Below are positions 5,456-59,385 of a DNA stretch of 64,000 nt, in pieces. Position 1 is the stretch's first letter. Each line of letters begins with the position of its first letter. Position numbers and translations under genes: made by a program. Origin of the DNA: Aquificota bacterium (GTDB lineage Bacteria; Aquificota; Aquificia; Aquificales; Aquificaceae); NCBI GenBank assembly GCA_030549905.1, contig JAUQQK010000010.1, positions 1 to 64,000 of the forward strand, written 5' to 3'. The notes under the pieces are model-generated. The model did not search any database, had not been told where the DNA came from, and worked only from the letters and a program-made list of their open reading frames with translations.

Positions 5456-8349
<2,894 letters not shown>

Positions 8350-8380
8350 TTATTTGCCATACGTCGAGTGAGAAATAGGC

Positions 8381-9178
8381 TCATTGAAAGACCTCCATTC
8401 TGAAAAAGCTATACCAGAGAGCATAGGCATACAAACAGGTAAGCAAGCATATACAGTTCCTCCACCTGCTTGAATAGTTAAACTGCTTTAGCATTGAAAA
8501 TACACCCTCTACCCTCTGCCTTTGTGATTTGTCCTCTCTACTGCTACAAACCTTTACAAGCTCACATCCCCTATACCCCCTATCACCTATAAGCTCAAAC
8601 CTCTCAAGCAAACTCCTAAGCAATGAACTCTTTGAATGCCTCAACCTTAAAGACCTTACCTCATGATAACTTCCTGGGTGAAACCAAAGCTCATAAACAA
8701 CTCCATAATAAAGCTATTTGAACTTGACCCTTTGTTTGTAATGCTGGCTATAGAGATTTCTGTTTCTTACACCCCAAAATTGTTTGCCTGACATCCGCTT
8801 TATCTTGTGCGTTCTTGCTCTGTTGACATTAGCTACTGGCAAAATTGTACCATCAACTACAAGCCTTATCTTCTTTCCAGCAGTTAATTTCAAGAGCATA
8901 AGCAGATACACCCGATAGAGCATATACTCTCTCAAAATTCTATAAACTCTTCTCACTTTTGACTTTCTGAAGATGTGATAGGACATTATTTTGTTGCTGA
9001 TAAGAAGTCTGGCAAGTTTCAAGACGGGTGTTCCTGTAAGGAAGGAGAGAATAAAAAGGGATGCTATTTGCTCATCAGATAGCTTAGGCTTTCTGCCTAC
9101 TTTTGGGCTATGGTCTATAGCTTTTGAGAAAGTTTGTATGGTTTGCAGTATTCTGTGATATACTTCAAGTAGTAGCAT
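8381..9178 (-). pseudogene. DDE transposase (IS982/IS5-like) broken by one in-frame TAG
   Basis: One continuous 266-codon frame interrupted by a single amber codon at 8714-8716 (codon 155). The N-terminal part has a helix-rich binding region (GRKPKLSDEQIASLF) and the first acidic residue in VVDGTILPVAN. Beyond the stop, in the same frame, come ELWFHPGSYHEVRSL, the second Asp in IGDRGYRG and the Glu in RQRVEGVFSMLKQF. This D-D-E spacing and the overall size fit the IS982 group best. AGGAGG precedes the ATG at 9178. Terminal inverted repeats were not found by eye. It lies at the trailer end of the CRISPR array. Confidence 0.8.
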
Positions 9179-9265
9179 TTTGATACCTCCTAAGTGGGGT
9201 ATTGGGTAGGGTAGTATAAAGGCTACTCTACACGCTTCTTATTTTAGCAAGGAGTGTCTATTAAA

Positions 9266-9689
9266 AGGAATTTCTCACCCGACGTATTAGCAACAAGTTG
9301 TACTATTAGTTTTCCTGCCCTCCCCCAGGGGCGTTTCAACTCCACACGGTACATTAGCAACGACGATGCAGCAACGCCCACTACCTTCACGGAAGGCACT
9401 TTCAACTCCACACGGTACATTAGCAACAAAGAAAGGCAACCTTTAGACCTGCCAGCTATTCAGCTTTCAACTCCACACGGTACATTAGCAACCATCACCA
9501 AGTTTTCCGCTTGCTTGCCCGCTCAAAGCGTTTCAACTCCACACGGTACATTAGCAACTTAATGAACTCCAATATTCTTTCCCATCTTTAATAACGTTTC
9601 AACTCCACACGGTACATTAGCAACCATAAGCTTAATCCATAAAACTTTTTGCAATTCTACGTTTCAACTCCACACGGTACATTAGCAAC
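9266..9689 (-). CRISPR. CRISPR array, 6 intact 29-nt repeats plus one degenerate terminal repeat
   Basis: Repeats on the plus strand begin GTTTCAAC and end ACATTAGCAAC, at 9333, 9399, 9464, 9530, 9596 and 9661. The copies at 9399 and 9464 start with C instead of G. Spacers are 36-37 nt. A decayed copy ends at 9294 (shares TTAGCAAC), adding one 38-nt spacer. The reverse complement ends in GTTGAAAC, the usual 3' end of a type I repeat, so transcription runs on the minus strand. The decayed repeat at the low-coordinate end is the trailer, consistent with that. No cas gene is in the window. Confidence 0.97.
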
Positions 9690-55884: not shown

Positions 55885-56922
55885 ATGGCTGTAAAGGATA
55901 TTATGGATGCCCTAAGGGATGTGCTTGTGGATAATACAAGGCTTTCTGAGCTTGTGAAAGATATAAAACTTATAGGCAGGCAATTAGAGATTGTTTATAG
56001 GTTGCCAAGACAGGGCATAGAAGAGGAGATAGTGGAAAAAACTAAAAGTGCCTTAGAGAGCGTGCCTGAGGTGGAAGAGGTTAAGGTGAGGTTTGTGGAA
56101 GCTCCCCCAGCCCAGCAGGTTATGGCTCCGCCTATGTTTTCCAAAAGAAGGGTGCCGGGTGTTAAACACCTGATGGCGGTGGGCAGTGGTAAGGGTGGTG
56201 TGGGAAAATCCACCGTCTCCGCCAACTTAGCCTTAGCCCTTTCCAAGCTTGGCTACAGGGTGGGTCTTTTAGATGCAGACATATATGGACCCAGCATACC
56301 CACCATAATGGGTGTTAAGGGGGAAAGGGTGCATGTGGACGAAAACAACAGGATAATTCCTGTAGAGAAGTATGGAATTAAACTGCTGTCCATAGGCTTT
56401 TTGCTTCCCTCTGAAGATACGCCCGTCATATGGCGTGGTCCCATGCTTATGAAGGCTCTGACCCAGTTTCTCTTTGATGTGAGCTGGGGCGAGCTTGACT
56501 ATCTTATATTAGACCTTCCACCCGGCACGGGTGATGTGCAGCTTACTCTTGCTCAAAACGTGCATATGAGCGGTGCGGTTGTAGTCACTACACCACAGGA
56601 TGTGGCCCTTGCGGATGTGAAAAAGGCGGTAGCCATGTTCAGAGAGGTTCAGATTCCAGTGCTTGGTGTTATTGAAAACATGGCGTACTTTGTATGTCCA
56701 GAAAGCGGTAAAAAGTATTACATCTTTGGAAAGGGAAGGGTGGCTGAGTTTGCCACCGCCTATGGTCTTAAGATACTAGGTTCCATACCCATTGACCCTG
56801 AGCTGGCGGAAACATCGGACCTTGGCGTCCCTGTGGTGGAAAGCCATCCAGACTCTGACACGGCAAGAGCCTTTATAAGCATAGCAAAGCTAATAAGCGA
56901 CATAACAGAAAGGAGGTCTTAA
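55885..56922 (+). CDS. Mrp/NBP35-family iron-sulfur carrier ATPase
   Basis: 345 residues. N-terminal MIP18/DUF59 domain (about 1-85), then P-loop GSGKGGVGKSTVSANLALAL, DADIYGPSIPTIMG and LDLPPGTGDVQLTLAQ. The cluster-binding CxxC reads CPES (YFVCPESGKKYYIF): the second Cys is Ser. Transfers Fe-S clusters to apo-proteins. GGAGG precedes the ATG. One base separates it from the cysteine-desulfurase-like gene. Confidence 0.9.
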   Translation: MAVKDIMDALRDVLVDNTRLSELVKDIKLIGRQLEIVYRLPRQGIEEEIVEKTKSALESVPEVEEVKVRFVEAPPAQQVMAPPMFSKRRVPGVKHLMAVGSGKGGVGKSTVSANLALALSKLGYRVGLLDADIYGPSIPTIMGVKGERVHVDENNRIIPVEKYGIKLLSIGFLLPSEDTPVIWRGPMLMKALTQFLFDVSWGELDYLILDLPPGTGDVQLTLAQNVHMSGAVVVTTPQDVALADVKKAVAMFREVQIPVLGVIENMAYFVCPESGKKYYIFGKGRVAEFATAYGLKILGSIPIDPELAETSDLGVPVVESHPDSDTARAFISIAKLISDITERRS

Positions 56923-56923
56923 T

Positions 56924-58144
56924 ATGTTTTTACAAAAGGCAGGAAAAAGGGTGGTTTACTTAGACCACATAGCCACAACGCCCGTAGCTCAGGAAGTTAT
57001 TGAGGCAATGCTTCCCTACTTCAGGGAACACTTTGGAAACCCCACATCCCTTCATAGCTTTGGACAGGTGGCAAAGAAGGCAATAAACAAGGCAAGGGAG
57101 GCGCTGGCAAGCCTGATAAATGCCAATACGCCAGAGGAGATAATTTTCACTTCAGGAGGCATAGAGGCGAACAACTTAGCCATAAAGGGCATAGCGGAAG
57201 CCTATGAAAAGAAGGGAAAACATATAGTATCCACAGAGATTGAGCACCACTCAATACTGCACCCTCTCAAAAGCCTTGAAAGAAAGGGATGGGAAGTTGC
57301 ATATCTGAAGCCTGACAAGTATGGACTTATACACCCCGAGCAGGTGGCGGAGGCGGTACGTCCCGATACGGTGCTTGTGAGCATAGGGCATTCCAACAGA
57401 GAGATAGGCACCATTCAGAACATAAAGGAGCTGGTAAGGGCTGCAAAAGAAAAGAACCCTAAGGTCATATTCCACACGGACGCCTGTCCTACCCTCGGGC
57501 ATCATCCGGTGGACCTAAAAGACTGGGGTGTAGACGCCGCTTCCTTTACCGCACACCTCATGTATGGACCCAAAGGAGTGGGAGCCTTATGGACGCGTAA
57601 AGGTGTAAAGATAAGACCACTTATTGAGGGTGGCACGCAGGAAAGGGGCGTGCGGGCAGGTACAGAAAACGTGCCGGGAATAGTGGGCTTTGGAGCTGCC
57701 TGCGAGTTAGCCATGAAGGAGCTTCCAGACAGGATGCAGAGGCTCTCCTATTACAGGGACAAGCTGAGAAAGGGGCTGGAAGAAAGGCTTGACTATATAG
57801 AATTCACAGGGCATCCAACCCAAAGGCTTCCTCACCACCTTTCTCTCATCGTGCATCTCATTGAGGGTGAGGCAATGCTTCTAAGGCTTGACCTTATGGG
57901 CATAGAGACCGCCTCAGGCTCTGCCTGCGTTTCTCTGGCTTTAAAACAATCCCATGTGCTCTTTGCAGTGGGCGTGCCAAAGGAAGTGGCTAACGGCTCT
58001 ATCGTGTTTAGCTTCGGCAGGGACAACACGGAGGAAGATGTGGATTACGTGATAGAAGAGTTTCCAAAGACGGTCAAGCTCCTGAGAGAGTTATCCCCCT
58101 TCACGCCTGAAAACTGGGAGCAGTATGTGAAGAGTAAAAAATGA
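56924..58144 (+). CDS. cysteine desulfurase (NifS/IscS)-like protein lacking the PLP lysine
   Basis: 406 residues of clear IscS fold: YLDHIATTPV, SGGIEANNLAIKG, STEIEHHSI, and catalytic C335 in SGSACVSLALKQSH. But the lysine that binds PLP, in the usual GHKIYGPKG, is replaced: AHLMYGPKGVGA, with L212 at that place. D186 is kept but the stacking Gln is P189 (TDACPTLG). It may not bind PLP normally; a scaffold or partner role with Mrp is possible. Overlaps queH by 4 bases. Confidence 0.85.
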   Translation: MFLQKAGKRVVYLDHIATTPVAQEVIEAMLPYFREHFGNPTSLHSFGQVAKKAINKAREALASLINANTPEEIIFTSGGIEANNLAIKGIAEAYEKKGKHIVSTEIEHHSILHPLKSLERKGWEVAYLKPDKYGLIHPEQVAEAVRPDTVLVSIGHSNREIGTIQNIKELVRAAKEKNPKVIFHTDACPTLGHHPVDLKDWGVDAASFTAHLMYGPKGVGALWTRKGVKIRPLIEGGTQERGVRAGTENVPGIVGFGAACELAMKELPDRMQRLSYYRDKLRKGLEERLDYIEFTGHPTQRLPHHLSLIVHLIEGEAMLLRLDLMGIETASGSACVSLALKQSHVLFAVGVPKEVANGSIVFSFGRDNTEEDVDYVIEEFPKTVKLLRELSPFTPENWEQYVKSKK

Positions 58145-59385
58145 AGCTTCTGGTCCATATATGCTGTGCCCCCGATGCGGTTTATTTTCTCAAAAGGCTA
58201 AGGGAAGATTATCCTCAAGCCAGCATAGTGGGCTTTTTCTACGACCCAAACATACACCCCTATGAAGAATACAGGCTAAGATACATAGAAACCGAAAGAA
58301 CCTGCAGGGAGCTGGGCATAGAGCTTTATGAGGGTGAGTATGACCTTGAAGGCTGGCTTTCCTCAGTGAGGGGCTACGAGGAAGAGCCAGAGAGAGGAAG
58401 ACGCTGTGCCATATGCTTTGACTACAGGCTCTTAAGAAGCTTGGAGTTTGCAAAAAAAGTAGGAGCCACGCACCTTACCACTACCCTTCTCATGAGCCCA
58501 AAAAAAGAGTTTAACATGCTCAAAGAGAGCGGTCAGAAGGTGTGCGAAAACACGGGCATAGAGTTCTTAGCCTTAGACTACAGGAAGGGTGGAGGCACTC
58601 AGGAGATGTTCAGGCTTTCAAGGGAGCTGGAGCTATACCATCAGGATTACTGCGGGTGCATATACGGGCTCTTCAAGCAAAAGAAGGGTGAGGTCTTCTG
58701 GGACCTTGTATCCTTTGGCGGAAGGCCTCCCGGTAGCAAGGAGGAGATGCTCTTTATAAAAGAGGTAAGGCTCTATGCAGAAACAGAGCTTGGACTTTCC
58801 TGCAGGGAGTGGGACTTTGATTTTTTAAACTGGAGGGTATTGCAGGGCAAGTTAGAGGTGAAGGGTCAGGTGGTACCTTCCTTTGTGAGGCCCTATTCTG
58901 CTTCCGTTAGAGGTCTTTTGAAGGCGGACCCTGTGGAAAAGGCAGGCAATGTTATTTACTACAATAAGGGCGGGCTGAGAATCTTCCTAAAAGAGAGGCT
59001 TGAAGATGAACCCCTTGAGGACTTTGATGGCATATGCAGTCCAGCCTTTTTAGTTTCCAAGGAGTATGAAGAAGTGCTTACAAAAGAAAGGGTTAGCGTG
59101 AGCCTGCAGACCCATATGGAGCCTGGCAGGTCTTCCGTGCTTTTAATGGGAAGCCTTCAGGCAAAGGACATATACGCTATTCCTGCGGACACGCTTCAGG
59201 ACTCAAGGGGTCTCAGCTTAGAGGCTCTAAAAGAGCTTCTTTCCTCAAGCCTTGAGGAAGTGCTAAGAGGTGAAAGGGCTTATCTTCTGTGCGGAGCCTA
59301 CAGCCTCGGAAGGACAGGTATTAAATACTTTGAGCAAAGAACGGGCAGAAGGGTTAAAGCCCTTCTTTGTAGTCAAACTCCTTAG
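58141..59385 (+). CDS. queH: epoxyqueuosine reductase QueH with C-terminal extension
   Basis: 414 residues. N-terminal QueH domain (about 1-190): HICCAPDAV, RRCAICFDYRL, TTTLLMSPKKEF, and HQDYCGCIYG provide the cysteines for the 4Fe-4S and second metal site. It makes the last step to queuosine; tgt is at 7207. A further ~220 residues (from FGGRPPGSKEE) have no recognised motif except Cys residues near GICSPA and LLCGAYS. Overlaps the IscS-like gene, hinting at cluster supply. Confidence 0.9.
   Translation: MKLLVHICCAPDAVYFLKRLREDYPQASIVGFFYDPNIHPYEEYRLRYIETERTCRELGIELYEGEYDLEGWLSSVRGYEEEPERGRRCAICFDYRLLRSLEFAKKVGATHLTTTLLMSPKKEFNMLKESGQKVCENTGIEFLALDYRKGGGTQEMFRLSRELELYHQDYCGCIYGLFKQKKGEVFWDLVSFGGRPPGSKEEMLFIKEVRLYAETELGLSCREWDFDFLNWRVLQGKLEVKGQVVPSFVRPYSASVRGLLKADPVEKAGNVIYYNKGGLRIFLKERLEDEPLEDFDGICSPAFLVSKEYEEVLTKERVSVSLQTHMEPGRSSVLLMGSLQAKDIYAIPADTLQDSRGLSLEALKELLSSSLEEVLRGERAYLLCGAYSLGRTGIKYFEQRTGRRVKALLCSQTP

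Follow-up and report, generated by a model that had tools for sequence, protein, structure and literature searches.

The ISC system is regarded as receiving its sulfur universally through cysteine desulfurases, and in the textbook direction sulfur moves from IscS to TusA. The residues of E. coli IscS that serve the PLP phosphate, the PLP ring, the Schiff base, the substrate carboxylate and the persulfide are established; among them, we take Thr76 to be the PLP phosphate site and Arg354 the arginine of the substrate carboxylate.

Lys-less IscS as such is already known. A. fulgidus IscS has aspartate at the lysine position, shows no desulfurase activity and gives a cysteine ligand to the [2Fe-2S] cluster on IscU (PMC7585200), and IscS1 of M. 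acetivorans, which adjoins IscU1, has no catalytic lysine (PMC7585200). Sulfide supplies IscU in ΔiscS E. coli (PMC13015791), and the SMS and minimal SufBC systems of methanogens assemble Fe-S clusters from sulfide without a cysteine desulfurase (PMC12192291). The residues of E. coli IscS on which TusA docks have also been described (PMC2854127).

Here we analyse a Lys-less IscS/NifS-like protein, called pIscS below, that is encoded in the window, by which we mean the whole stretch of 64,000 nucleotides of Aquificaceae DNA. An earlier, sequence-only reading of the locus had pointed to a lysine-less archaeal IscS, and this protein is real, being the A. fulgidus IscS with Lys changed to Asp (PMC7585200). 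The features discussed are collected in Table 1.

Table 1. Features of the window and, where indicated, of locus L179
Feature	Position	Strand	Basis or remark
pIscS, Lys-less IscS/NifS-like protein, 406 aa	56924..58144	+	ORF call, Pfam/NCBIfam, alignment
Ile16 codon ATA	56969..56971	+	Ala in most Lys-bearing IscS aligned; Leu in Hydrogenothermaceae
Ile80 codon ATA	57161..57163	+	E. coli IscS Thr76
Arg159 codon AGA	57398..57400	+	E. coli IscS Asn155
Pro189 codon CCT	57488..57490	+	E. coli IscS Gln183
Leu212 codon CTC	57557..57559	+	Schiff-base Lys206 of E. coli IscS
Cys335 codon TGC	57926..57928	+	catalytic/persulfide Cys328 of E. coli IscS; invariant in the Lys-less clade
Val361 codon GTG	58004..58006	+	E. 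coli IscS Arg354; Val/Leu across the whole Lys-less clade
mrp, ApbC-type Fe-S carrier P-loop NTPase	55885..56922	+	first operon gene; adjoins pIscS in nearly all Aquificaceae/Hydrogenothermaceae loci read
queH, epoxyqueuosine reductase	58141..59385	+	4-nt overlap with pIscS; linked only in Thermocrinis/Hydrogenobacter-like loci
ORF of 284 aa	54950..55804	-	between mrp and a LysA-like gene; position conserved in Aquificaceae; no Pfam match
L179, iscU	9045..9506	-	acidic C-terminal tail
L179, ThiI/MnmA-like PP-loop protein	8002..9048	-	with NFACT-R RNA-binding domain
L179, short ORF, about 70 aa	7525..7761	-	between tusA and nfu; conserved and in frame across the loci read

Residues at the PLP and substrate sites

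The window protein matches PF00266 (Aminotran_5) with E 3e-80 and is of the NifS-IscS-like type. All its top NCBIfam models are desulfurases and every one of them scores under its equivalog cut-off; the best, NifS, reaches 477 bits with a cut-off of 531 bits. Foldseek aligned the predicted fold to IscS and NFS1 with TM 0.84-0.87, which places the protein in group I by fold and sequence family. The AlphaFold model has a pLDDT of 79, poorest at the Cys loop and the N-terminus, and we do not argue from it how the pocket is filled.

In the alignment with E. coli IscS the Schiff-base lysine of the group I SGHK motif is missing and Leu212 stands in its place. The Thr, Asn, Gln and Arg ligands (T76, N155, Q183 and R354 in E. 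coli) are replaced by I80, R159, P189 and V361, while Asp186 (D180), His108 (H104), His211 (H205) and Cys335 (C328) are still present. The persulfide cysteine lies on the long SGSAC loop, in SGSACVSLALKQS, and is invariant in 29 aligned orthologs; in the aligned Aquificaceae and Hydrogenothermaceae it sits within an invariant SGSACVSxALKQSHV stretch.

The translation of the ORF and the alignment agree with the sequence-only reading in the motif TAHLMYGPKG and in L212, P189 and C335. Its list of changed residues was right for L212 and P189 and incomplete in that I80, R159, V361 and I16, the latter at a position that is usually Ala, were overlooked; the Leu212 codon, which it had put at 57577-57579, is the CTC at 57557-57559. 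The replacement throughout the lineage, the Lys-less clade of several phyla and the link with TusA and DsrE, all given below, had not been seen in it.

Spread of the Lys-less proteins and other sulfur-mobilising genes

Orthologs were searched in 136 genomes of the phylum, 102 of which gave matches, and the ortholog was found in the families f1 and f2, that is, Aquificaceae (Aquifex, Hydrogenobacter, Thermocrinis and Hydrogenobaculum) and Hydrogenothermaceae (Persephonella, Sulfurihydrogenibium and Hydrogenothermus). The PLP-Lys position holds Leu in 49/49 Aquificaceae genomes aligned and Tyr in 20/20 Hydrogenothermaceae, and the remaining PLP ligands are likewise gone in the aligned orthologs of both. 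The reading frames are intact (402-420 aa), and dN/dS of close pairs lies between 0.035 and 0.067, about 0.05, which corresponds to purifying selection. The sole 99%-complete genome of these families without pIscS is G034, where the contig stops directly after mrp; a true loss was ruled out on that ground.

The genome to which the window belongs has 1.65 Mb and is 99.91% complete, and the absence of genes from it rests on targeted six-frame searches. The sequence-only reading had proposed looking for a canonical IscS in the rest of the genome as a check; this search was run, and it matched pIscS alone, with no canonical cysteine desulfurase found. The weaker PF00266 matches are BhcA/PhnW-type transaminase, GcvPA, GcvPB, DegT, AspC-type and KBL/BioF-type proteins; a second, canonical IscS among them was ruled out, as they are transaminases, glycine dehydrogenase subunits and BioF/KBL-type proteins. 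Targeted searches of the same genome gave one IscU and no SufB, and SUF as a back-up system was rejected for the lack of SufB. Within the phylum IscU and Lys-less IscS are confined to f1 and f2, and SufB is confined to f3-f5. In six single-contig Aquificaceae genomes too (G030, G033, G037, G039, G052 and G057) pIscS is the single match; an extra Lys-bearing paralogue is carried by some other Aquificaceae and by most Hydrogenothermaceae.

Further paralogues were noted. A second IscS paralogue, much more degenerate and on a very long branch, occurs in the Aquificaceae genera g1, g4 and g8 (L092, L093, L094 and L098). It is about 360-397 aa long and reads GPSLL or GPFLL at the Lys site, and its L093 copy is flanked by an aldehyde:ferredoxin-oxidoreductase-like gene and a homocitrate-synthase-like gene. 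Genome G031, which also has the main ortholog, carries at L079 another Lys-less IscS paralogue (GHYFYAPHYS, SNSPCISS) with about 44% identity to the window protein. The contigs of L110 and L156, labelled as Acidobacteria and Flavobacteriales MAGs, bear Aquificaceae/Hydrogenothermaceae genes and are probably misbinned or mislabelled.

The genome scan also returned Lys-less relatives outside Aquificota, with Arg at the Lys site in two MAGs (L173 and L176) and Gln in one (L166). Further copies in the GTDB phylum of L173 and L176 have His there. Of the 30 best relatives in the phylum of L166, none has the Lys (Gln, Leu, Gly or Met stand there) or the substrate Arg, and each one keeps the Cys, with ALKxS after it. 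In trees built after removal of the active-site and Cys-loop columns, all Lys-less sequences form one clade with a single change between Lys and no Lys, supported at 97/95 with 52 rows and at 99/96 with 57 rows. The window protein falls in this clade, which spans three phyla and is linked to DsrE and TusA.

Gene neighbourhoods and the link with tusA and dsrE

As previously read from the sequence, pIscS lies between mrp, from which it is separated by 1 nt, and queH, which it overlaps. Considering that adjacency to queH is limited to Thermocrinis/Hydrogenobacter-like loci, we leave QueH out of the main account. The window QueH has about 230 additional C-terminal residues without any Pfam match.

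In Hydrogenothermaceae the operon runs mrp - pIscS - iscU - ThiI-like PP-loop protein - tusA - small DUF1858 ORF - nfu - aroE, with pIscS and iscU about 2 kb apart in Persephonella. In Aquificaceae mrp-pIscS is separated from iscU - PP-loop - tusA - DUF1858-like ORF - nfu (- aroE), which is located elsewhere; the genome of the window has iscU-PPloop-tusA-DUF1858-like-nfu-aroE at another site, so that tusA belongs to the isc gene group. The iscU gene adjoins that of pIscS in Hydrogenothermaceae and in other phyla, not in Aquificaceae. Since the two genes share the Hydrogenothermaceae operon, pIscS is tied to IscU, in a group that also includes the persulfide carrier TusA. A scan of the Hydrogenothermaceae loci with pIscS and iscU (L059-L078) and of the Aquificaceae iscU loci (L179 and L196-L212) gave no dsrE nearby.

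Some components of this gene group deserve mention by themselves. The PP-loop protein, in L179 and in the Hydrogenothermaceae operon alike, is always encoded between iscU and tusA, and it may be a tRNA thiolase linked to the Lys-less ISC system. The conserved gap of about 235 nt between tusA and nfu was considered as a place for a tRNA; there is none in the genome of the window, and the gap contains the ORF of about 70 aa, whose L207 copy matches DUF1858. The IscU of L179 and the other aligned Aquificota copies end in an acidic tail with an extra Cys, e.g. IPDCYEEEEEESREFEFL; neither E. coli IscU nor the aligned IscU of other phyla has this tail.

Outside Aquificota the Lys-less gene is found in cassettes of several kinds. 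Among them, a His-type cassette is iscR-pIscS-iscU-dsrE-tusA with an SQR-like flavoprotein upstream, an Arg-type one is iscR-pIscS-iscU-tusA-dsrE, and a Gln-type one is iscR-pIscS-dsrE-tusA. Counting loci with readable downstream DNA, where the flanks of Lys-bearing copies were mostly 1.5-3 kb, we found tusA within about 1.3 kb of 35/38 Lys-less non-Aquificota loci against 5/75 Lys-bearing IscS loci, and dsrE at 32/38 of the former against 0/51 of the Lys-bearing loci tested. Because the Lys-less proteins are one clade, the association with TusA and DsrE is one event kept with shifting gene order through three phyla, not one of many origins. No PP-loop match was present in the dsrE-tusA cassettes of the two non-Aquificota phyla.

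The five Lys-bearing loci with tusA are iscS-iscU operons. In one Lys-bearing IscS-IscU subgroup (L316, L317, L318, L319 and L321) tusA lies immediately upstream and the position of Asn155 is taken by His; this subgroup may represent a relative stage of the TusA link. Docking of TusA through a surface of the E. coli type was set aside as uninformative: the docking residues W45, E49 and D52 of E. coli are Q48, K52 and N55 in the window protein, and they are not conserved in many other IscS either.

Putative role of pIscS in relation to known systems

Taking into account that the PLP chemistry is lost and that the Cys loop and the operon with IscU are kept, pIscS would work with IscU and sulfur, not on cysteine. 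We consider it very probable, from sequence and gene context, that pIscS is a non-desulfurase partner of IscU. The sequence-only reading had proposed such a scaffold, and the proposal is now well supported by the joint loss of PLP ligands and substrate Arg, the invariant Cys335, the iscU operon in the sister family and the lack of another desulfurase.

The explanation that we favour, with moderate confidence as a whole, is as follows. pIscS would be an IscS paralogue that does without PLP; it has kept the fold of IscS together with the loop of Cys335 and would dock the scaffold IscU. Cys335 would handle sulfur of inorganic origin, not from L-cysteine, and might possibly also ligate the nascent cluster. 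The likeliest donor would be a protein-bound persulfide on TusA, otherwise sulfide, in which case sulfur would move from TusA to IscS/IscU. Where DsrE/SQR-type proteins occur, they would charge TusA, and its persulfide would be passed to Cys335 or straight to IscU; the cassettes favour TusA as source. Against the TusA relay speak the company of tusA in Aquificaceae, which is iscU rather than pIscS, and the lack of dsrE in the Aquificota operon, and we give TusA an even chance of being the sulfur donor to pIscS/IscU. Somewhat short of even stands the more general proposal that a cysteine-independent ISC is widespread in bacteria, in which sulfane sulfur from sulfide oxidation would pass by DsrE and TusA to the PLP-free IscS (Cys335-SSH) and on to IscU; this would reverse the direction from IscS to TusA and would be the sole sulfur route to Fe-S clusters in most Aquificaceae.

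Free sulfide could instead be the source, as suggested by A. fulgidus, with the Lys-less IscS only stabilising IscU and lending Cys335 as a ligand, and TusA adjacent for tRNA thiolation. The inactive, Asp-bearing A. fulgidus protein ligates the cluster in this manner (PMC7585200) and has lost the substrate Arg too (HGTLLLTLGR), sulfide can feed both IscU (PMC13015791) and SufBC/SMS (PMC12192291), and in Aquificota the ThiI-like gene of tRNA-thiolation type between iscU and tusA plausibly gives tusA another job. However, dsrE-tusA adjoins the Lys-less pIscS in two phyla without a PP-loop match and dsrE is absent near Lys-bearing copies, which argues for a dedicated feed by sulfur carriers; moreover, in its C-terminal quarter A. 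fulgidus IscS comes nearer to Lys-bearing IscS than to the clade of pIscS, and the two losses look separate. We regard the supply by free sulfide as less likely than not.

It is very improbable that pIscS is a working desulfurase with PLP held by another lysine or non-covalently. Of the PLP pocket, Asp186, His108 and His211 remain, and there are lysines nearby, e.g. K217, but Thr, Asn, Gln and the substrate Arg vanish together with the Lys in every member, and the Lys position is free across the clade (Leu, Tyr, Arg, His, Gln, Gly or Met). The substitutions in the Aquifex PDB entries described below reinstate the canonical residues at precisely these positions; presumably the depositors had seen no activity of the native protein. 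Unconventional use of PLP, which the sequence-only reading had offered as an option, is for the same loss of PLP- and carboxylate-binding residues disfavoured. A structural or regulatory partner of Mrp or QueH with no role in sulfur supply would fit the tight mrp operon of Aquificota and the queH overlap of some genera, yet the Cys335 loop is invariant and the gene is joined to the iscU operon in Hydrogenothermaceae and in mrp-less loci of other phyla, and we rate this reading marginally lower still. As for a sequencing error at the leucine codon, named earlier as a possible refutation, or a decaying pseudogene, nothing but the odd residue itself speaks for them; the agreement of 49 + 20 genomes, the intact frames and the dN/dS refute both, and their probability is negligible.

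Whole bacterial families and a clade of three phyla keep IscS and its cysteine and drop the PLP chemistry, by which the docking and relay role of IscS is separated from the catalytic one. This suggests that Fe-S clusters can be built from sulfur sources other than cysteine, and whether a dedicated bacterial route feeds IscU from inorganic sulfur becomes a question that can be tested with few small proteins. In Aquificaceae that lack the canonical paralogue there seems to be no cysteine desulfurase that could be recognised, and the database name "cysteine desulfurase" would be wrong for hundreds of genes. The Lys-less clade and its TusA/DsrE link appear to be new.

Among known structures, the unmodified Aquifex entry 9wfy is the direct ortholog of the window protein. 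Over 405 residues it does not differ from locus L040 (genome G001). Its identity to the window protein is 85%, and Leu212, I16, I80, R159, P189 and V361 are common to both. In the engineered entries 9wfe, 9wfb, 9wf8, 9wew, 9wer and 9wep the canonical residues are reinstated stepwise, with R159N+L212K followed by V361R, P189Q, I80T and I16A, and 9wep also has G155M, A188V and T209S. Since six entries reinstate lost residues, the loss of the PLP site is already under study by others. The seven entries carry only the name "cysteine desulfurase" and are absent from the PDB copy ending 2026-04-08, and a literature search found no paper on them.

Against the predicted fold, Foldseek ranks A. fulgidus IscS (4eb5, 4eb7 and 4hvk; D199K mutant 4r5f) first, at about 42% identity; like the window protein it lacks the PLP Lys and keeps the Cys; its substrate Arg is Leu, a loss shared with the Lys-less clade. 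It differs in the Asp at the Lys site and in having no ALKxS motif. Its C-terminal 94 aa, the part available from PDB alignments and compared apart from the tree, are 55-61% identical to Lys-bearing IscS of the Desulfotomaculum group vs 38-54% to the Lys-less clade; judged by this, its Lys loss is probably separate from that of the clade. Methanosarcina acetivorans IscS1, which was likewise outside the tree, resembles pIscS in being Lys-less and IscU-adjacent. The SMS/SufBC systems have an unrelated scaffold (SufB/SmsB), which in Aquificota occurs only in families without IscU and pIscS. With canonical IscS/NifS/NFS1, as in E. coli IscS, pIscS has in common the fold, the Cys loop, the partnership with IscU and, in its relatives, the iscS-iscU order, whereas Lys206, Thr76, Asn155, Gln183 and Arg354 are all replaced; read from its residues, the window protein belongs to the cysteine desulfurases by fold and would not belong to them by function.
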